A stretch of DNA of 8,761 nt from a bacterium (lineage in GTDB: Bacteria > ARS69), in NCBI GenBank assembly GCA_025774865.1, contig JALGZO010000383.1:1-8761 (forward strand), written 5' to 3'. Shown in pieces: positions 285 through 8,761 of the stretch (its first letter is position 1; the number at the start of each line of letters is the position of its first letter). The translations under genes and the position numbers were made by a program. Under the pieces are notes generated by a model. That model was not told where the DNA came from and made no database searches. It saw only the letters and a list, made by a program, of their open reading frames with translations.

Positions 285-1115
285 CTAGTATGTGCGCGTT
301 TCGAACTCGGAAAGGGAACGTACTTCTTCGACCAGGTAGGACCGGCGGCGGGAGGTCAGCTCCTCCCAGTCCACCTCGTGACCATCGAAGTCCGGACCAT
401 CCACACATGCGAACTTTGTTTCGCCACCCACTCTGCACCGGCATACCCCGCACATGCCCGTGCCGTCGATCATGATCGGATTGAGACTGACAATGGTCTT
501 GATCTCGTGCGGGCGCGTCGTCTCGCTGGTCTTCATCATCATGAAGGTACAGCCCAACGCAACGACCCGATCGATGTGCTCACCGTCACGGATGAGACTT
601 TCAAGCACGTCGGCGACCCGGCCCTCGCGATCGCACGATCCCCCGTACGTAGTGAGCACAAGGCGATCCGTACACTCACGGTACTTGTCCTGCCAGTAGA
701 GAAGGTTCTCGCTTCGCGCTTCCATGAGCCCGATAACGCGGTTCCCGGCCTTCTTCATTGCTCTGGCCACCGGGAAAACCGCGCCGATACCGTAACATCC
801 CATGGCAACGACCACGGTGCCGTACCTGTCGATCTCCATGGAGTTGCCCAGAGGACCGACGCACGCCTCGATCTCGTCGCCGCCTTGGAGCTGGGCGAGT
901 CTGTGTGTCGAGGCGCCCACGGTCATGAACACCATGCTGACGATTCCCGTCTCCTCATCCCAGTCGGCGGCGGTCAAGGGAATGCGTTCCCCCACCTCGT
1001 CGATCTTGATGATCACGAAGTTGCCGGGCTCCAGCTTCCGGACCACGTCGGGAGCCTCGACTCGCAGGAGATGAAGATTGGGGACGACACGCGTACGCTC
1101 GATCACCTTGCGCAT
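285..1115 (-). CDS. nfnA: NfnA-like FAD/[2Fe-2S] subunit (sulfide/dihydroorotate dehydrogenase-like ferredoxin-NAD(P) reductase)
   Basis: 276 residues, close to the usual NfnA/PyrK-family length. An FNR-like beta barrel occupies about residues 1-95, with the FAD-binding signature RIPLT (44-48). A Rossmann-type NAD-binding half spans about 98-200. The C-terminal [2Fe-2S] motif follows the characteristic SLNPIMIDGTGMCGVCRC: Cys222, Cys225 and Cys237, with Asp217 as a possible fourth ligand (NfnA clusters are reported with Asp plus three Cys) and an additional Cys227. In the family this subunit binds NAD(H) and passes electrons to the NfnB bifurcating flavin. The start is ATG, with a strong AGGAGGAG site 5 nt upstream and only 9 nt after the nuoG stop; it is the last gene of the operon. 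Odd points: the usual GGxGIAP nucleotide loop reads GCYGIGAVFP (106-115), and the usual GP before the Met run reads GCTFMMM (188-194), so the NAD site may be altered. Its usual partner NfnB is encoded four genes upstream instead of next door. Family assignment is confident; the exact acceptor is not known. Confidence 0.9.
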   Translation of the reverse strand: MRKVIERTRVVPNLHLLRVEAPDVVRKLEPGNFVIIKIDEVGERIPLTAADWDEETGIVSMVFMTVGASTHRLAQLQGGDEIEACVGPLGNSMEIDRYGTVVVAMGCYGIGAVFPVARAMKKAGNRVIGLMEARSENLLYWQDKYRECTDRLVLTTYGGSCDREGRVADVLESLIRDGEHIDRVVALGCTFMMMKTSETTRPHEIKTIVSLNPIMIDGTGMCGVCRCRVGGETKFACVDGPDFDGHEVDWEELTSRRRSYLVEEVRSLSEFETRTY

Positions 1116-1118
1116 GGG

Positions 1119-1126
1119 CTCCTCCT
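1119..1126 (-). promoter_or_regulatory. Strong ribosome binding site of nfnA overlapping the nuoG stop codon
   Basis: AGGAGGAG on the minus strand lies 3-5 nt before the nfnA ATG and shares bases with the nuoG TAG stop (1127-1125). Ribosomes finishing nuoG can reinitiate directly on nfnA. This fixes the nfnA start. Confidence 0.65.
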
Positions 1127-3614
1127 AGATCCTCTCGATCCGCACGGCGCAGATCTCTTCCGGGGCCTTGCTGTCGGGATCGAAGACGCCGTCGAGGACG
1201 GTCATGAGAGAGCCTTCGCCCCCACGGGCGACCATTCGGGCAACGCCTTCTCGAGCGCGCTCCGACACCGCGGCGTGGGCTGACACCTTTCCCCGGCGGG
1301 AGACGATGCTCACCGGCATGCCCGTCTCGACTCCCATCGCCTCCGCGTCGTGGGGACTCAGGGATACCGTGCCGGCCGGTTCGATCCTCCGAAGACCGGG
1401 GACGTGGGACGCGAGAGGCGTGGCCCGGTACGTGTACTCGTCGAGCTCCGCGATCAACAGGAACGGGTAGTCCTTGTCGGGTATCTCCGTCTTCGGAGTA
1501 CGTACCCGTCTGACGTCGACCGGTGCCCGCACTTTTCTGCCCGCCTGCTCGTGACCGAAGAAGGCGCCGTTCCCATCGAGCGCGTCGTGCGTGGCGCCCC
1601 CGTAGAAGGGAACGGTCTCGGCAACCTCGGCCATGACCGCGGAAGGCTGCTCGTGCTCGAAACCGGCCTTCTCCAGCTTTCCGGCCAGCCGGGAGAGTAC
1701 CTCGCAGTCGGACATCGCTCCCAGCGTGCGGCGTGCGGCCGCTCTCACTCGCTGCACGCGACCTTCCATGTTCGTGTACGTCCCGTCCACCTCGGCGAAG
1801 CTCGAGACGGGGAACACGACATCGGCGATCTCGAGCGCCTCACTCGGCGGGAACAGATCCTGAACGATCACGAATCCCGCATCGTACTTTCCCGGGGACA
1901 GGTCTTCGCCCATCAGATAGAGAAGGTCCAGCCCTCCCTCCCGGGCGGCCGTGTGAACCTCGGGCACCGTCATTCCGTCACACCCGAAGAACGCCGCCAT
2001 CTCGATGGCGCCGCGGTCGTTCGCCGCGCTCAGGAGCGGAAGCACCTTGGCGCCGAGCGCGCGGGCCACGGCGGAGATCAGATTCCCGTTCCTCGTCCCC
2101 TCCCGGCGGCGCATCACACCGCTTCCGAACAGGACGAGGACGGATCCCTTCTTCTTGGCGTCCTCGAGGACATCTGCGGCCCTCTCGACGTCCTCGGGGA
2201 CAGCCGCGCTCTCGCCCCCCATCCGCGCGGACAGCGAGTCGAGCACCTGGCGCTCCCCACCGGGCTCGTATTGGATCTCGCAGGTCGCGAGGCCAGACAG
2301 CACTGTCTCGTGGGGGCTCATCAGGACGAGACTCGTTCCGCCCTCCCGGATCGCCCGCTTCAGCTTCTCCGCCAGCACCGGATGCGAGAAGGAAGGATCG
2401 GCGCCGATGACGAGCACCGCCGCGGCGTCGGTCAAATCGGAGATCCGGGCGGGCTCTGACCCGTTGCCGTGGCCATTGAGCAGCGGCCCGTAGGAGAGCC
2501 TCACCGAGCTGTCCACGTTGCGGGTCTCGAGCACGTCGCGCGCGAACTTGTGCGCGTAGTAGATGCTCTCGTTCGTGCAACTGCCCGAGTACAGCAGGGC
2601 CGAGCGCTCCGGTTTGGCCCGCCGGATGCCCTCGGCGGCCGCGTCCAGCGCCGTCTGCCACGGCACTTCGACGAGGTCACCGTTCCGGCGGATCATGGGG
2701 CTTTTCGGCCTCTTGATGCTCCGAACGAACTCGACCACGGAGAAGCGTCCCCGGACGCAATTGTCACCTTGATTGACGGGGCCGTCCCGACGCGGAAGCG
2801 CCTCGATCACGCCGTCGTGCTTGACGCCGAGGTCGAACTGGCAACCGACGCTGCAGAAGGAACACGTGGTCTGCACGTGCTGGTCCGCCGCTCCGTCCCA
2901 ACGACGAACGCGTTCCGACAGGGAGCCGGTCGGACACGCGTCCACGCACGATCCGCAGAAGCGGCAGCCCGACTCGAGCAGGGTGCGGTTGAACGCCGTA
3001 CCCACGCGCGCCTCGCTACCCCGGTAGACGAAGTCGAGCGTGTTCGTCCTCCCGATCTCCTCGCAGGCCCTCACGCAGCGCCCGCACAGGATGCAGAGAT
3101 TGTCGTCCCGGTCGATGAACGGGTCACGCCGGTCGATGGGCAGACCCCGATACAGCGAAGGAACCGTGATCTCGGGGCCGGCATCCCCGAAGACGTGCTG
3201 CACCACCTGCCGTAGCTCGCACATGTATCCCTTGGGGCAGAAGTTGCAGCCCGTCGTCGCTTCGGCCCGGCCGGTGCACTCGTGGTGAGTCCAGCATTCG
3301 TGCCGTTCCTCACAGACCAGGCACGCCGAGGGATGCTCGCACAGCAGGAGCTCCAGGACACCCCTGCGCAGCTTCTGGATTGCGTCCGTATTCGTCCGGA
3401 CAACCATGCCGTCCTGCGCCGTCGTGATGCAGGCGGGATGGGAACCGGGCCTTCCCTCGATCTCCACCACGCACAACCGGCAGCCGCCGTAGGGTCTGAG
3501 GTCCGGGTGATCGCACAGGGTCGGCACGTAGACTTCGGCCTTCCGGGCCGCATCCAGAATGCGGGCGCCCTCCTCCACCTGCGCCTTGCGCCCGTCGATC
3601 TGCAAATCGATCAT
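1125..3614 (-). CDS. nuoG: NuoG/FdhA-like iron-sulfur subunit with degenerate molybdopterin-oxidoreductase domain
   Basis: 829 residues from the ATG at 3614, which overlaps the nuoF stop (ATGA) and has GAGGTG 8 nt upstream; an upstream in-frame extension is a shadow of nuoF. Domains in order: plant-type [2Fe-2S] ferredoxin (Cys34, 45, 48, 62); His-Cys [4Fe-4S] motif (His94, Cys98, 101, 107); an extra Cys set (113, 123, 126, 132); a two-cluster ferredoxin (Cys174/177/180/184 and 217/220/223/227); formate-dehydrogenase-type [4Fe-4S] (Cys251, 254, 258, 286); a molybdopterin oxidoreductase domain from about 300 to 690; and a C-terminal dinucleotide-binding domain ending AVRIERI. In FdhA, N-V-D-x-x-x-R-x-(Sec/Cys)-His carries the catalytic residue; here these are Ser374 and Tyr375, and the conserved Lys after the last cluster Cys is Arg288. 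Formate oxidation is therefore not expected. The likely role is electron wiring beside NuoE/NuoF in a soluble complex, as in HydA or NuoG. Whether any molybdopterin binds is unknown. Confidence 0.88.
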   Translation of the reverse strand: MIDLQIDGRKAQVEEGARILDAARKAEVYVPTLCDHPDLRPYGGCRLCVVEIEGRPGSHPACITTAQDGMVVRTNTDAIQKLRRGVLELLLCEHPSACLVCEERHECWTHHECTGRAEATTGCNFCPKGYMCELRQVVQHVFGDAGPEITVPSLYRGLPIDRRDPFIDRDDNLCILCGRCVRACEEIGRTNTLDFVYRGSEARVGTAFNRTLLESGCRFCGSCVDACPTGSLSERVRRWDGAADQHVQTTCSFCSVGCQFDLGVKHDGVIEALPRRDGPVNQGDNCVRGRFSVVEFVRSIKRPKSPMIRRNGDLVEVPWQTALDAAAEGIRRAKPERSALLYSGSCTNESIYYAHKFARDVLETRNVDSSVRLSYGPLLNGHGNGSEPARISDLTDAAAVLVIGADPSFSHPVLAEKLKRAIREGGTSLVLMSPHETVLSGLATCEIQYEPGGERQVLDSLSARMGGESAAVPEDVERAADVLEDAKKKGSVLVLFGSGVMRRREGTRNGNLISAVARALGAKVLPLLSAANDRGAIEMAAFFGCDGMTVPEVHTAAREGGLDLLYLMGEDLSPGKYDAGFVIVQDLFPPSEALEIADVVFPVSSFAEVDGTYTNMEGRVQRVRAAARRTLGAMSDCEVLSRLAGKLEKAGFEHEQPSAVMAEVAETVPFYGGATHDALDGNGAFFGHEQAGRKVRAPVDVRRVRTPKTEIPDKDYPFLLIAELDEYTYRATPLASHVPGLRRIEPAGTVSLSPHDAEAMGVETGMPVSIVSRRGKVSAHAAVSERAREGVARMVARGGEGSLMTVLDGVFDPDSKAPEEICAVRIERI

Positions 3615-5509
3615 GACACCATCACCTCGGCGGGGGATTTCTTGACCACGGCCCCGACCTTCGGGGGGCAGACGGCGAGGCAGGTGCCGCAGCGCATGCA
3701 CTTCACGTCGTCGATCACGTGCACGTTCTTGTGCTGTCCCGTGATCGCTCCGACCGAGCACTCGTCGATGCAGATGCCGCAACCCACGCATCCCTCGGTG
3801 ATCTCGAAGGTCACGAGGTCCATGCAGCGGAGCGCCGGGCAGCGCTTCTCGTGGACGTGTGCCTCGTACTCGTCGCGGAAGTAGCGCAAGGTGGTCAGCA
3901 CGGGGTTCGGTGCCGTCTGCCCGAGCCCGCAGAGCGAGGTCGCCTTGACCGTCAGCGCCAGTTCCTCGAGCTTCACGAGATTCTCCGGGGTACCCTCCCC
4001 CCGTTTGATCTTCGCCAGGATGTCCACCATCTGCCGCGTCCCGATCCGGCACGGCGTGCACTCGCCGCAGGACTCACTCTGCGTGAAGCTGAGGAAGTAG
4101 TGGGCGACGTCCACCATGCACGTCGTCTCGTCCATCACGATCATGCCGCCCGACCCCATCATCGAGCCCACTTCGATCAGGCTCTCGAAGTCGACGGGAA
4201 GATCCAGGTGCTCCGCGGGGATGCATCCGCCGGACGGCCCACCCGTTTGCACCGCCTTGAACTTCTTGCCGTCGGGAATTCCGCCGCCGATGTCCTCCAC
4301 GATCTCCCTCAGGGTGATCCCCATCGGCACTTCGACGAGACCCGTGTTGTTGATCTGGCCGACCAGCGAGAAGATCTTGGTCCCCTTGCTCTTCTCGACC
4401 CCGATCTTGGCGTACTCGGCTGCACCCTGGCGGATGATCACCGGCACGTTCGCCCAGGTCTCCACGTTGTTGATGCTCGTCGGTTGACCCCACAGCCCGC
4501 TCTGCACGGGATACGGGGGCCTGGGCCGCGGCATGCCGCGCCGCCCTTCGACCGACGCGATCAGGGCCGTCTCTTCGCCGCAGACGAAGGCACCGGCCCC
4601 CCGGCAGATCCTCACCTCGAAATCGAATCCCGTTCCCAGAATGTCCTTGCCGAGAAACCCGCGCTCCTGCGCCTGCTCGATCGCGATCCCGACGCTCTCG
4701 ATCGCTGCGGGGTACTCCATCCGTACGTAGAAGTGACCCTGTCGCGCTCCCATCGCGTACGCGCCGATGATCATCCCTTCCAGAACGCTGTGCGGATTCC
4801 CTTCCAGAACGCTGCGATCCATGTAGGCGCCCGGGTCTCCCTCGTCCGCGTTGCAGATGATGTGCTTCACGTCACCCGGCGCACTCCGGCAGCGTTCCCA
4901 CTTGACGCCGGTCGGGAAACCGGCCCCGCCCCGGCCCCGCAGCCCAGCGGTCTTGATCTCCTCGATCACCTCGTCCGGCTGCTTTTCCGTGAGTACGGCA
5001 ACGAGCGCCTCGTAACCTCCGAGAGCGATGTAATCGTCGATCTGCGTGCAATCGATGAACTTGTTGCTGGCCAGAAGCGTGCGGGTCTGCTTCTTGTAGA
5101 AGGGAATCTCGCTCTCGAGCTCGACCTTCTCCTCCGTTCCCGGGTCCACATACAGAAGTCGCTCGATCACGTCGTTGCCGAGTACGGACTGCTCGACGAT
5201 CTCCACTGCATCCTCGGGCTTGACCTTGCAGTAGCAGATTTCGCTGGGAGTCAGGACGACGAGAGGGCCCTGCTGGCAGAAGCCATGGCAACCCGATCGC
5301 CGGAGTCCCACCTTCTTCTTCAGGCGGTGCTTCGCGAGGAGGGTCTCCAGGGCCTCCGTCAGCGCGCGGGCCTTCGACGGGGCGCAGCTCGGTCCGCCGC
5401 ACACGCTGATCCACTTCTTCACGGACTCGATTCTCTTACGCGCCGCGTTCTTCGCCGCCTCGAAGTCGGCCGCGCTGCGAATTCGTCCTACTGCCGCTTG
5501 CGCGCTCAC
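3611..5509 (-). CDS. nuoF: NuoF/HydB-type NADH-binding FMN iron-sulfur subunit
   Basis: 632 residues from the GTG at 5509, matching the long HydB/HndC/Bfu type of NuoF and longer than complex I NuoF. Order: thioredoxin-like [2Fe-2S] domain (Cys37, 42, 74, 78); NADH-binding glycine loop GRGGAGFPTG (192-201); FMN-binding NADEGDPGAY (220-229); an SLBB region with a GGPSGG motif; the N3-type [4Fe-4S] site CGECTPC (481, 484, 487) plus Cys527; and a C-terminal two-[4Fe-4S] ferredoxin (Cys574/577/580/584 and 604/607/610/614). In the family it exchanges electrons between NAD(H) and iron-sulfur chains, and in bifurcating hydrogenases this subunit carries the key flavin. The GTG start overlaps the nuoE stop (GTGA) and has GGAGGGGG upstream; the frame stays open to 6040, but that part lies antisense-frame over nuoE and lacks family sequence. 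The first ferredoxin motif ends Cys584-Ser in place of Cys-Pro. The cluster context (POR, Nfn subunits, no hydrogenase) points to ferredoxin/NAD coupling. Confidence 0.93.
   Translation of the reverse strand: MSAQAAVGRIRSAADFEAAKNAARKRIESVKKWISVCGGPSCAPSKARALTEALETLLAKHRLKKKVGLRRSGCHGFCQQGPLVVLTPSEICYCKVKPEDAVEIVEQSVLGNDVIERLLYVDPGTEEKVELESEIPFYKKQTRTLLASNKFIDCTQIDDYIALGGYEALVAVLTEKQPDEVIEEIKTAGLRGRGGAGFPTGVKWERCRSAPGDVKHIICNADEGDPGAYMDRSVLEGNPHSVLEGMIIGAYAMGARQGHFYVRMEYPAAIESVGIAIEQAQERGFLGKDILGTGFDFEVRICRGAGAFVCGEETALIASVEGRRGMPRPRPPYPVQSGLWGQPTSINNVETWANVPVIIRQGAAEYAKIGVEKSKGTKIFSLVGQINNTGLVEVPMGITLREIVEDIGGGIPDGKKFKAVQTGGPSGGCIPAEHLDLPVDFESLIEVGSMMGSGGMIVMDETTCMVDVAHYFLSFTQSESCGECTPCRIGTRQMVDILAKIKRGEGTPENLVKLEELALTVKATSLCGLGQTAPNPVLTTLRYFRDEYEAHVHEKRCPALRCMDLVTFEITEGCVGCGICIDECSVGAITGQHKNVHVIDDVKCMRCGTCLAVCPPKVGAVVKKSPAEVMVS
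3621..3628 (-). promoter_or_regulatory. Ribosome binding site of nuoG inside the end of nuoF
   Basis: ATCACCTC on the plus strand, read as GAGGTGAT on the minus strand. It starts the interval of 8 nt from GAGGTG to the ATG at 3614-3612. It selects this ATG over the longer open frame and supports coupling through the ATGA overlap. Confidence 0.5.
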
Positions 5510-5976
5510 CGGGGACCCCCTCCGAACTCCGTGATCAACGCCGAGACATCCCGAACTCCCACGTGGGCCCGATAGTTGCCGTCCACGACGACGACCGGGC
5601 CGATGGCACAGCATCCGAGGCAGTTGACGGTTTCGAGCGTGAACTGACCATCGAGCGTCGTTTCGCCGGTTCGGATTTCCAGTCGCCGCTCGAATTCCTC
5701 GGCCACCGGCGCGCCCCCGCGGACGTGACACGCGGTTCCGAGGCACACCGACGCGACGTGCCGCCCGCGCGGCGCGAACGTGAAGGCCTTGAAGAAGGTG
5801 GCCACCCCGTAGACCTTGGAGAGGGGAACGCCCAACTCGCGGGACACGACCTCGAGGCTCTCTTCCGGGAGATAGTTGTAGGCGGCCTGCACGTTCTGCA
5901 GGACCGAGATCAGTGCCGCCTCGTCCTTGCCGTGCTCCTCCGTGATTCTCTTGACCGCGGCGACCGTCTCTGTCAT
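5506..5976 (-). CDS. nuoE: NuoE-like [2Fe-2S] thioredoxin-fold subunit
   Basis: 156 residues, the normal NuoE/HydC/HndA length. The N-terminal helical bundle (about 1-70) includes the conserved segment NYLPEESLEVVSRELGVPLS and the YGVATFF stretch. The thioredoxin-like [2Fe-2S] domain follows, with Cys78 and Cys83 (C-x4-C) and Cys119 and Cys123 (C-x3-C, in NCLGCC), the standard four ligands. In complex I and in bifurcating HydABC-type enzymes this subunit docks on NuoF beside the FMN. The ATG at 5976 overlaps the nfnB stop (ATGA) with a moderate GGGGGAA site 5 nt upstream, and its own stop overlaps the nuoF GTG. Assignment is secure; it must act with the adjacent NuoF. Confidence 0.95.
   Translation of the reverse strand: MTETVAAVKRITEEHGKDEAALISVLQNVQAAYNYLPEESLEVVSRELGVPLSKVYGVATFFKAFTFAPRGRHVASVCLGTACHVRGGAPVAEEFERRLEIRTGETTLDGQFTLETVNCLGCCAIGPVVVVDGNYRAHVGVRDVSALITEFGGGPR
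5516..5523 (-). promoter_or_regulatory. Ribosome binding site fixing the GTG start of nuoF
   Basis: GGAGGGGG on the minus strand with the GGAGG core 9 nt before the GTG at 5509-5507. This, and the start of recognisable NuoF-family sequence just downstream, favour the GTG over the much longer open frame reaching 6040. Confidence 0.6.
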
Positions 5977-7364
5977 GCCGGTTCCCCCGAAAGCCTCTTG
6001 TGGATTGCGGCCGCGGCCTTCTTGCCGTTGCCCGCCGCATCGATGACCGTCGCCGACCCGGTCACGATGTCCCCCGCCGCGTAGACCCGGTCCATCGAGG
6101 TCTCGCCCGTTTCCTCATCCACGATGAGCCCGCCCCAGCGCTCGGTGTCGAGCTCCGGCGTGCACCCCGCGATGAGCGGGTTGGGGCTCGTCCCGATCGC
6201 CACCACGAAAGCGTCGCACTCCATCGTGAACGTCTCCCCGGTAGGCACCGGCCGCGCGCGACCCGACGCATCCGGCTCCCCGAGCTTCATCTTCTCCAGC
6301 ACGATCTCCTTCACGAATCCCCGGTCGTCACCGTGGATCTCCACCGGTGTCGTGAGCCAGTGGAATTGGACGCCCTCCTCGACGGCGTGCTCGTACTCCT
6401 CGATCCGCGCGGTCATCTCCTTGATCGTCCGCCGGTAGACGATGATCGCGTCCTCGGCGCCGAGCCTCATCGCGCTGCGCACCGAGTCCATGGCGACGTT
6501 GCCGGCGCCCACCACGATCGTTCGCCGCCCGGCTCGGGCGGGCGTGTCGTATTCGGGGAACCGATACCCGCTCATCAGGTTGACTCGGGTCAGAAACTCG
6601 TTCGCCGAGTAGACCCCGGTCAGGTTCTCACCGGGAATCTTCAGGAACGACGGCAGTCCTGCGCCCGTACCGAGGAAGACGGCGGCGTACTCCGCGAGCA
6701 GCTCCTCCAGCGTCACGACCTTACCGACGACGACGTTGCACTCGATCTCGACGCCGAGCCGCCTCAAGCCGTCGATCTCGAAGTCGAGGATGTGGTTCGG
6801 CAGGCGGAACTCCGGGATCCCGTAGCGAAGGACGCCGCCCGGTTGGTGAAGCGCCTCGAAGATCTTGACCGAGTAGCCGAGCCGGGCGAGGTCTCCCGCC
6901 ACCGTCAATCCGGCGGGGCCGGAACCGACGATGGCGATCTTCTCCGGCTTGAGCTCGGGCAGCTCCTCGCTGATCCTGCCGACCTCCATTTCCCAGTCGG
7001 CGAGGAAACGCTCGAGGAAGCCGATCCCGACGGGGCTAAACCGCTTGCCCAGGTGGCAGCACTTCTCGCACTGTGTTTCTTGGGGACACACCCGTCCGCA
7101 CACCGCCGGAAGGCTGTTGACCGCTTTGACCGCCCGCAACGCGTCCTCGAACTGCCCCTCCTGGATCAAGTGCGCCATCTTCTGTATCGGGACATTGACG
7201 GGACAGCCGAGCTCGCAGTCGGGCTGCTGGCATTCGAGGCACCGTCCTGCTTCGAAGATCGCCCGGGGCGCGTCGTAGCCCTGATTGACCTCGTGGAAGA
7301 CCGCACGGCGTTCCACAGGGTCCAGCATCGGCATTTCGGTCTTGCTACGCGCTTTTATCGACAT
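5973..7364 (-). CDS. nfnB: NfnB/GltA-type NADPH-binding FAD iron-sulfur oxidoreductase
   Basis: 463 residues, typical of NfnB and the homotetrameric GltA (glutamate synthase small-subunit-like) family. The N-terminal double-cluster domain has Cys42, 45, 50, 54 followed by Pro, and Cys89, 93, 99 and 102/103 around CGRVCPQETQC; in NfnB structures a Glu in CPQE is a cluster ligand, here Glu96. The FAD-binding loop GSGPAG is at 147-152; the NADP(H)-binding loop GAGNVA at 286-291 is followed by VYRR, a common NADPH-type signature; and a C-terminal FAD motif AAGDI lies near 431-435. NfnB holds the bifurcating FAD and reduces NADP+ using NADH and reduced ferredoxin together with NfnA. No glutamate synthase large subunit is visible, whereas an NfnA homolog ends the same operon, so NfnB is the better name; databases may call it gltA. 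The ATG start has GAGGG 6 nt upstream and lies 29 nt after the POR stop. Confidence 0.92.
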   Translation of the reverse strand: MSIKARSKTEMPMLDPVERRAVFHEVNQGYDAPRAIFEAGRCLECQQPDCELGCPVNVPIQKMAHLIQEGQFEDALRAVKAVNSLPAVCGRVCPQETQCEKCCHLGKRFSPVGIGFLERFLADWEMEVGRISEELPELKPEKIAIVGSGPAGLTVAGDLARLGYSVKIFEALHQPGGVLRYGIPEFRLPNHILDFEIDGLRRLGVEIECNVVVGKVVTLEELLAEYAAVFLGTGAGLPSFLKIPGENLTGVYSANEFLTRVNLMSGYRFPEYDTPARAGRRTIVVGAGNVAMDSVRSAMRLGAEDAIIVYRRTIKEMTARIEEYEHAVEEGVQFHWLTTPVEIHGDDRGFVKEIVLEKMKLGEPDASGRARPVPTGETFTMECDAFVVAIGTSPNPLIAGCTPELDTERWGGLIVDEETGETSMDRVYAAGDIVTGSATVIDAAGNGKKAAAAIHKRLSGEPA

Positions 7365-7370
7365 CGTCGT

Positions 7371-7375
7371 CCCTC
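7371..7375 (-). promoter_or_regulatory. Ribosome binding site of nfnB
   Basis: GAGGG on the minus strand, 6 nt before the ATG at 7364-7362, in the 29-nt gap after the POR gene. No promoter or terminator is evident in that gap, so nfnB is read through from the POR gene. Confidence 0.45.
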
Positions 7376-7393
7376 AGTCGGCGCCCCTCGCGG

Positions 7394-8761
7394 TCACAAG
7401 AGCGGGTTCGCGTGCATCGCCTTGAGTCTGGCCCAGCGCCGCTCGACCTCCGCTTCGCCCGCCTCGAGCATCGCGTGGTTCTCTTCCTTGAGGAGGTGTC
7501 TCGTCTTGCCCATCATGCCGAGGTAGTCCCGGAGCGGAATGCGCCGGCCGACGGCCTCGGGGTCGTAGGTGATGTTCGTCTCGCCTCTTTCCACCTCGTA
7601 CAGCGGGAAGAAACAGCTATCGACGGCAGCCTGCATGACCGCGGTGCCGACATCGTCTTCCGTCCGCCAGTTGAGCGGACAGAACGAGAGCACCTTCCCG
7701 TACACCAGGCCCTCGTGCTTCGCGTACCACTGGGCCTTGGCCGCCTTCTTGATGAGGTCCTGCGGGTATCCGTCGACACCGCTGAACACGTACGGGATGT
7801 GCGTGGCCGCCATGATCTGGATCGTGTCCTTGTGCTGGTACTGCTTGCCGACCTGCTTGGGACCCACGTTGCTCGTGCTCGTGCGGTGTCCCAGGGGCGT
7901 CGAGTAGGAGAGCTGCGCACCGGTGTTCATGTACCCCTGGTTGTCGTACTCGAGGATGATGATCCGATGGTTCCGGTTCGCGGTGCCGATCGTCGGCCCC
8001 ATCCCGATGTCCATCCCCCCGTCACCCGTCACCATGACGAACGTGATGTCGGGGTCCTCGCCGAACTCACCGCGCCGCAGGCGCTCGTGGTACATCTCCG
8101 CCAACCCCGCGAGCGTGGGCGCGCCGTTCTGGAAGAGGTTGTGGAGGTACGTCACACGGTGCGAGGTGAGGGGATAGCCCGTCGTCACGACCATGCTGCA
8201 GCCGGTCTGGAACAGCACCACCACGTTCCCCTCGATCCCCATGAAGAACTGGCGGAACGAGGAGAACGCCCCGCAACCGGGGCACGCGCCGTGGCCCGGC
8301 GCCACCCGACTGGGAACGGTCGTGAAGCTGTGCATCGGTGCCAGCTCCACCTCGAGCTTCCCGGTCTCGGGATCCGGCTCGACCTTGACCAGCCCCTGGC
8401 TCGTCTCTTCCTTCGTGAGGGGCGGCAGCTTTGGCTCCATGACCACGCTCGGATCACCGGGCGTCGCTCCATGGTAGTCGAAGCGCTTTTCCACCTTGCC
8501 CGTCTTGGCCGCCTCCAACGCCATCCGGAACCACTCCTCGGCGTCCTCCCGGTAGAAGTCCAGCCCGCCAAGACCGTAGACCCGGCTGATGCAGAGGGAG
8601 CTGTTCTCGGGATCGTCCTTCAGGGCGGCCTTCACCTCGTGGCTCATGTTGCCGCCGCCTGAGCCATAGGAATCGGCACGATCCCCGATCACGACGACCT
8701 TCACGTCCCTCAGCGACCCCTGCACTTCGGCAATGGGGAACGGACGGATTACGGTCGGGCT
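7394..8761 (-). CDS. porB: Pyruvate-type 2-oxoacid:ferredoxin oxidoreductase, fused alpha (C-terminal part)-beta chain, partial
   Basis: The reading frame is open to the window edge, so the 5' end is missing; 455 residues are visible. The first about 90 are the end of a PorA alpha chain: TVIRPFPIAE, then KVVVIGDRADSYGSGGGNMS and the YGLGGLDF segment. A linker of about 60-70 residues leads into a complete PorB beta domain starting at GHGACPGCG. Its [4Fe-4S] ligands are the CPGC pair, a Cys exactly 25 residues later (TGCS) and a late Cys (LSFCPLNW), matching D. africanus PFOR spacing. The thiamine diphosphate motif runs from GDGGMDIG to YDNQGYMNTGAQ. The TTGYP and HNLFQNGAPT segments resemble pyruvate-type more than 2-oxoglutarate-type enzymes. 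It makes acetyl-CoA, CO2 and reduced ferredoxin from pyruvate and CoA, or the reverse. A GTG at 8725 could be read as a start, but alpha-chain homology continues upstream of it. The gamma and delta parts are presumably encoded to the right or N-terminally. Confidence 0.9.
   Translation of the reverse strand, partial: SPTVIRPFPIAEVQGSLRDVKVVVIGDRADSYGSGGGNMSHEVKAALKDDPENSSLCISRVYGLGGLDFYREDAEEWFRMALEAAKTGKVEKRFDYHGATPGDPSVVMEPKLPPLTKEETSQGLVKVEPDPETGKLEVELAPMHSFTTVPSRVAPGHGACPGCGAFSSFRQFFMGIEGNVVVLFQTGCSMVVTTGYPLTSHRVTYLHNLFQNGAPTLAGLAEMYHERLRRGEFGEDPDITFVMVTGDGGMDIGMGPTIGTANRNHRIIILEYDNQGYMNTGAQLSYSTPLGHRTSTSNVGPKQVGKQYQHKDTIQIMAATHIPYVFSGVDGYPQDLIKKAAKAQWYAKHEGLVYGKVLSFCPLNWRTEDDVGTAVMQAAVDSCFFPLYEVERGETNITYDPEAVGRRIPLRDYLGMMGKTRHLLKEENHAMLEAGEAEVERRWARLKAMHANPLL

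Follow-up and report, generated by a model that had tools for sequence, protein, structure and literature searches.

The DNA analysed here, hereafter the window, is an entire 8,761-nt contig (JALGZO010000383.1; C387 in our numbering) of the bacterial assembly GCA_025774865.1 (GTDB lineage Bacteria; ARS69), and it carries an operon in which nuoE, nuoF and nuoG stand together with nfnA and nfnB. These five genes probably encode one soluble five-subunit NADPH/NADH/ferredoxin bifurcating complex of the Bfu (HydABC-like) family. At the level of sequence, the genes form a recurrent five-gene module with NuoG–NfnA fusions, an NfnA specific to the module, a dead formate dehydrogenase (FDH) site and complete cluster ligands. 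Open reading frames (ORFs), Pfam/NCBIfam matches and the raw sequence agree on six minus-strand genes in the order porAB–nfnB–nuoE–nuoF–nuoG–nfnA, separated by 29, -4, -4, -4 and +9 nt, exactly as the initial annotation had given them. The features referred to below are as follows.

7394..8761, minus strand: fusion of the C-terminal part of PorA with PorB, 2-oxoacid (probably pyruvate):ferredoxin oxidoreductase (POR); PFOR_II and TPP_enzyme_C domains and a PorB family match; 5' end cut by the contig.
5973..7364, minus strand: NfnB (NfnL), 463 amino acids, NADPH/flavin adenine dinucleotide (FAD) subunit with two [4Fe-4S] sites, assigned from its closest solved chains and cluster residues.
5506..5976, minus strand: NuoE/HydC/StnA-type [2Fe-2S] subunit (BfuC), 156 amino acids (PF01257, E 1e-44).
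3611..5509, minus strand: NuoF/HydB/StnB-type subunit (BfuB), 632 amino acids, GTG start, assigned from Pfam and its closest solved chain.
3668..3790, minus strand: C-terminal 2x[4Fe-4S] domain of NuoF, residues 574-614 (Fer4 matches at 567-617).
1125..3614, minus strand: NuoG-like scaffold (BfuA), 829 amino acids, assigned from Pfam and its closest solved chains.
3213..3293, minus strand: NuoG insertion with an extra CxxCx5C motif (C123, C126, C132), found in 19/19 loci.
2490..2495, minus strand: NuoG S374-Y375 at the FDH catalytic selenocysteine (Sec)/Cys-His site, from alignment with Sec-FDH loci and the Rhodobacter capsulatus FDH (RcFDH).
285..1115, minus strand: NfnA (NfnS), FAD and [2Fe-2S] subunit of 276 amino acids, closest to NfnS and placed in a module-specific clade by its tree.
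795..797, minus strand: NfnA C107, in the dinucleotide-binding GGGxG loop (comparison of module and standalone columns).
720..722, minus strand: NfnA E132 (same comparison).
549..551, minus strand: NfnA C189, in the GPxxM loop (same comparison).

Conservation of the gene neighbourhood was assessed in two surveys. Among 80 NuoF (Bfu) loci from named genomes, nfnA was present in only 5, from Aminicenantes (L036, L041), TA06 (L052), Stahlbacteria (L055) and Thorarchaeota (L056, the one archaeal locus of the module); these five share the order nuoE-F-G-nfnA-nfnB and are the ones with a full-length NuoG of the window kind. A profile of window-type NuoG was then searched over 386 genomes and separated its members by a clear score gap. 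Fourteen insertion-type members were examined, the window among them, and nfnA lies beside or is fused to nuoG in all 14, with no insertion-type NuoG lacking an adjacent nfnA; 13 also show nfnB, and the contig of L170 ends within nfnA. The surveys together yield 19 module loci (the window and 18 others) spread over the named groups and some ten coded families, many of them from metagenome assemblies. Because the association of nuoEFG with nfnAB recurs in 18 other loci, a chance neighbourhood is excluded, and nfn genes were absent from two FDH loci used as controls. Of the six-gene order whose conservation the initial annotation proposed to check, the nuoEFG–nfnAB genes recur together and POR does not accompany them. 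The order nuoE-F-G-nfnA-nfnB is found in every other locus whose contig holds both ends; the parting of nfnB from nfnA by nuoEFG is therefore true of the window, but elsewhere both genes are adjacent after nuoG when present on the contig. In two families NuoG and NfnA form a single ORF (849 and 834 amino acids; L118 and L174, in genomes G002, from the window's family, and G260, from another), and because the two are sisters in the NfnA tree they may reflect one fusion event.

Genes upstream of the module vary between loci. A HydS-like Fe-S protein precedes it in two genomes (L167, L168), as in hydrogenase operons, and a histidine-kinase-like ATPase (L167) and DRTGG genes (L165, L167) also occur upstream; such neighbours, found likewise with bifurcating hydrogenases, hint at shared redox regulation. 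Two module genes that are otherwise intact contain in-frame stops, a TGA in the Thorarchaeota NuoF (L056:1160-1162) and a TAA in the Stahlbacteria NuoG (L055:8752-8754), which may reflect sequencing error, a split gene or readthrough.

The closest solved chain to NfnA is NfnS (5jca_S), and in a tree with 26 standalone NfnAs those of the module group together as a single clade (support 100/100). Position 107 is Cys in 19/19 module copies and Gly in 26/26 standalone copies, position 189 is Cys in 19/19 against Pro in 26/26, and position 132 is Glu or Asp in the module against Gly in 26/26; the standard nucleotide loops (GGGxG, GxR, GP) are not kept, and 19/19 module copies carry C-E/D-C. The [2Fe-2S] ligands D217, C222, C225 and C237 are intact in 19/19. 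In the predicted NfnA model, which was used to confirm the fold only and which matches 5jca_S, C107 and C189 each follow parallel strands at the nucleotide-binding edge. We take the loops holding these cysteines to be those that bind the dinucleotide in ferredoxin-NADP reductase relatives. A second set of the 32 best NfnA loci, partly overlapping the first, gave the same division: every C-E-C NfnA adjoins a module NuoG and every G-G-P NfnA is without one. In the same set, L220 (G354:C138) carries a standard G-G-P NfnAB adjoining a NuoG-like gene of a different type, apparently an independent nfn–nuoG neighbourhood. The C-E/D-C signature is a simple sequence marker and predicts altered nucleotide chemistry. 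When subunit distances are compared, the NuoG–NfnA pair shows the highest correlation (Mantel r 0.82), and NfnA–NfnB reaches r 0.63, or 0.78 without the window.

C78, C83, C119 and C123 of NuoE are conserved across the module loci. NuoF comprises, by Pfam, an N-terminal thioredoxin-like [2Fe-2S] domain, a 51K flavin mononucleotide (FMN)/NAD domain, SLBB, a [4Fe-4S] domain and the C-terminal 2x[4Fe-4S] domain that is characteristic of bifurcating BfuB. Its cluster cysteines are kept in nearly all of the 19 loci, those of the C-terminal pair in 18-19. Its closest solved chain is 7t2r_B, the bifurcating HydB of NiFe-HydABCSL (799 bits), and HydB/StnB chains score well above complex I NuoF in the PDB. 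With the BfuB domain set present, and with BfuC (NuoE) and BfuA (NuoG) homologues overlapping or adjacent and kept in the module loci, NuoF and NuoE are, by homology, a Bfu-type (HydBC/StnAB) bifurcating core. We also observed NuoF-GltD fusion proteins of ~1000-1100 amino acids, in which a GltD/NfnB-like domain replaces the NuoF-like C-terminal 2x[4Fe-4S], a wiring for NADPH unlike that of Stn (L021/L178 in G028, L042, L044, L078; G005:C61, G042:C3, G025:C36, G044:C76); L042, L044 and L178 show the fusion directly, and the rest are assigned by ORF length and match range.

NuoG contains, by Pfam, a [2Fe-2S] domain, a His-Cys3 [4Fe-4S] site, 2x[4Fe-4S], an FDH-type [4Fe-4S] and a decayed molybdopterin domain, and its closest solved chain is the RcFDH alpha subunit (6tg9_A, 316 bits), with StnC (8oh5_C) also matched. 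Alignment with RcFDH and with Sec-FDH relatives, which have TGA followed by His, places Ser374–Tyr375 of the window NuoG where the catalytic Sec/Cys–His stands; the catalytic pair is also lost in the other module NuoGs, and L118 and L172-L174 retain a still shorter pterin domain. An FDH function was rejected on these grounds. A hydrogenase was likewise rejected, since no H-cluster domain or NiFe gene occurs among the six window genes and the NuoG C-terminus is pterin-type. The cluster ligands of NuoG are invariant across the module loci, and an insertion with CxxCx5C lies between the His-Cys3 site and the ferredoxin-like domain in 19/19, absent from the Sec-FDH relatives aligned. At the same point of NuoG, after residue ~98-100 and before ~127-154, the Stn-type proteins L048 and L099 carry a GltD domain. 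Judged by these residues, NuoG is an inactive FDH relative with an extra cluster motif, and domains and catalytic-site loss bear out the view of NuoEFG in the initial annotation as a Bfu-type core that has neither a hydrogenase nor a competent FDH.

In the complex we propose, NuoE and NuoF would form the bifurcating core, exchanging electrons with NAD(H) at the FMN and with ferredoxin at the C-terminal [4Fe-4S] pair, and NuoG would be an inactive FDH-like scaffold whose Fe-S chain wires this core to a complete NfnAB pair, with NfnA attached to NuoG and NfnB bringing in NADP(H). In Stn, the FMN of a HydBC-like core receives electrons from NADPH by way of GltD and the clusters of NuoG (PMC10482914). 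By analogy, electrons would run NfnB -> NuoG -> NuoF, with NAD(H) and ferredoxin handled at NuoF/NuoE; we also infer that all five subunits assemble physically and that NADP(H) would be the third substrate. The net reaction would be Stn/Nfn-like and reversible, with the presumed direction NADH + 2 reduced ferredoxin + 2 NADP+ -> NAD+ + 2 NADPH, and in the window organism the co-transcribed POR would supply reduced ferredoxin. NfnA may provide NAD(H) with a second site; alternatively, its changed loops may serve a different acceptor.

Several observations weigh against a single complex of this kind. Because a full NfnAB bifurcates alone, the added NuoEFG looks redundant for the proposed reaction. 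The AlphaFold model of NuoG has low confidence over the Fe-S region (mean predicted local distance difference test score 69.8) and was therefore not used for cluster geometry. Module NuoFs are not monophyletic in a quick tree but are scattered over more than one clade, and NuoF was dropped as a clade marker of the module. The altered nucleotide loops mean that NAD(H) may not be a substrate of NfnA, a change that the initial annotation missed and that complicates its simple picture of joined NADH and NADPH pools. NfnB, finally, looks ordinary. Its closest solved chains are true NfnL (4ylf_B, 527 bits; 5jca_L, 509; the GltD part of StnC, 297), it has the FAD/NADPH folds and both cluster sites, and its cluster cysteines and Glu96 (CPQE region) are conserved. 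Comparison of module and standalone NfnBs gave no module-specific columns, and their tree has seven changes between module and standalone labels, the module copies not forming one clade; NfnB was rejected as a co-evolving subunit for these two reasons. NfnB is thus of the standard Nfn type by all of these comparisons, exchangeable and repeatedly exchanged, and for that reason it may bind only as the ordinary Nfn partner of NfnA. The window NfnB is the sister of the standalone NfnB of L179 (60% identity, support 100/100) and stands apart from the remaining module NfnBs, and no other Nfn-type NfnB was found in the window's assembly. Repeated exchange also accounts for the odd gene order of the window as a secondary replacement, most simply through loss of the nfnB that followed nfnA and gain of a different one upstream of nuoE. 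The split of nfnB from nfnA, which had been taken to imply joint assembly, is confined to the window and carries no such implication.

A rival reading is that the operon encodes two enzymes that do not join, NfnAB as an ordinary transhydrogenase and, independent of it, NuoEFG as a Bfu enzyme with another third substrate, their common handling of ferredoxin and NAD(P)H being the reason for co-regulation. NfnB, of the ordinary standalone type and often exchanged, fits that arrangement, and NfnAB is known to be a complete enzyme by itself (PMC6405883). The NuoG–NfnA fusions, the restriction of one NfnA clade and its residues to the module and the constant presence of nfnA beside insertion-type NuoG (members examined) all speak against it, and we regard it as quite unlikely; the same 19-locus synteny, fusions, clade and residues strengthen the earlier proposal that NfnA and NfnB are partners of NuoEFG. 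An alternative that we think unlikely, if slightly less so, is that NfnA gave up ordinary NAD(H) chemistry and that its loop cysteine pair is a redox-active dithiol or a metal site for an acceptor X; the complex would then couple X with NADPH, NADH and ferredoxin and might hold two bifurcation sites in series. In its favour, C107, E/D132 and C189 vary little or not at all across 19/19 module copies and are absent from 26/26 standalone copies while the FAD/[2Fe-2S] ligands are intact, and in the predicted fold both cysteines are placed after parallel strands at the nucleotide edge; the Glu/Asp at 132, however, could equally serve NAD(H) binding, and there is no candidate substrate. Equally doubtful is its extension to a four-substrate machine, in which the Nfn FAD and the Bfu FMN/Fe-S bifurcating centres would be joined by the dead FDH scaffold and NfnA would pass electrons through the new cysteine pair to an acceptor other than the usual NAD(H).

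The initial annotation had gone further than the five-subunit complex and placed POR, NfnAB and NuoEFG in one pyruvate-ferredoxin-NAD(H)-NADP(H) machine. POR does share the operon, 29 nt upstream, and its genes are complete: contig C744 of the same assembly overlaps the window end by 229 bp with 4 mismatches, a small disagreement by which it may stem from a strain variant, and supplies the upstream operon (L130) with a DHODH-like gene (PRK07565), a porG-porD fusion and the PorA half of the PorA-PorB fusion. Por-Bfu enzymes have been proposed in PMC9304861, which names Chloroflexi and syntrophic Proteobacteria, and porA/porB lie directly upstream of Bfu cores in 12 of our loci (L010, L019, L049, L061, L063, L064, L066, L068, L071, L075, L086, L087). 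These 12, however, all have a different, short NuoG and no nfnA, and por genes adjoin 0/18 of the other module loci, which rules POR out as a conserved module subunit. We consider the larger machine highly improbable, and POR is best read here as a co-transcribed operon neighbour. The 12 Por-Bfu-type loci occur in Dehalococcoidia, other Chloroflexi, SAR324 and deltaproteobacteria, a wider range than that given in PMC9304861. A second 2-oxoacid oxidoreductase cluster of the same genome (L131, G000:C765, 2026-6449) has a GltD-like protein, 44% identical to NfnB, between its subunits, a layout resembling phenylglyoxylate dehydrogenase organisation.

The five-subunit complex proposed here has its nearest relatives in Stn/Nfn-Bfu (Sporomusa ovata StnABC, PDB 8oh5; Thermococcus sibiricus Nfn-Bfu), which share the HydBC-like core, a NuoG/FDH-like subunit whose pterin domain is inactive, and a GltD/NfnB-type NADPH module. 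Stn carries GltD inside NuoG and is without NfnA (PMC10482914), whereas the module has a separate complete NfnB, a NuoG with no more than a short Cys insertion at the GltD site, and nfnA next to or fused with nuoG in 19/19 loci. From NfnAB (NfnSL; 4ylf/5jca) the module keeps the NfnB cluster cysteines and Glu96, the Asp/Cys [2Fe-2S] ligands of NfnA and the NfnA fold, but its NfnA is a separate clade with C-E/D-C in place of G-G-P and is linked to or fused with NuoG. Of the solved proteins, FdsABG, the NAD-dependent FDH of Rhodobacter capsulatus (6tg9), is most closely related to NuoG, along most of the NuoG chain; the module differs from it in the Ser and Tyr at the catalytic Cys/Sec and His, in a pterin domain shortened in several members and in the bifurcating C-terminal clusters of NuoF, which RcFDH does not have. 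Within the Bfu classification of PMC9304861, where Nfn-Bfu (with GltD inside BfuA), Por-Bfu, Fdh-Bfu and Bam-Bfu are among the types listed, types 2/3 with extra subunits (NiFe-HydABCSL, Fdh-Bfu, Por-Bfu, Bam-Bfu) resemble the module in their BfuBC core, BfuA-like NuoG and added third-substrate subunits. In the module these subunits would be NfnAB, a combination that does not appear in the main text of that classification. No description of a Bfu core with a full NfnAB pair was found in the open-access papers searched, including the main text of PMC9304861, and we therefore count the module as a new variation within the Bfu family.

Nfn and Bfu/Stn are unrelated bifurcating enzymes that have been described as alternatives, and papers on Stn report that the two are nearly mutually exclusive in acetogens; the conserved module holds both. 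It would be the second case of two bifurcating modules joined in one enzyme, after Bam-Bfu, for which such a union has also been proposed, and with its NuoG–NfnA fusions it suggests how GltD could have entered NuoG in Stn. Beyond the operon, the minus strand at positions 1-93 of the window holds the start of another gene (MRNIWIASAMILVNATAAQ...), signal-peptide-like and cut by the contig end.

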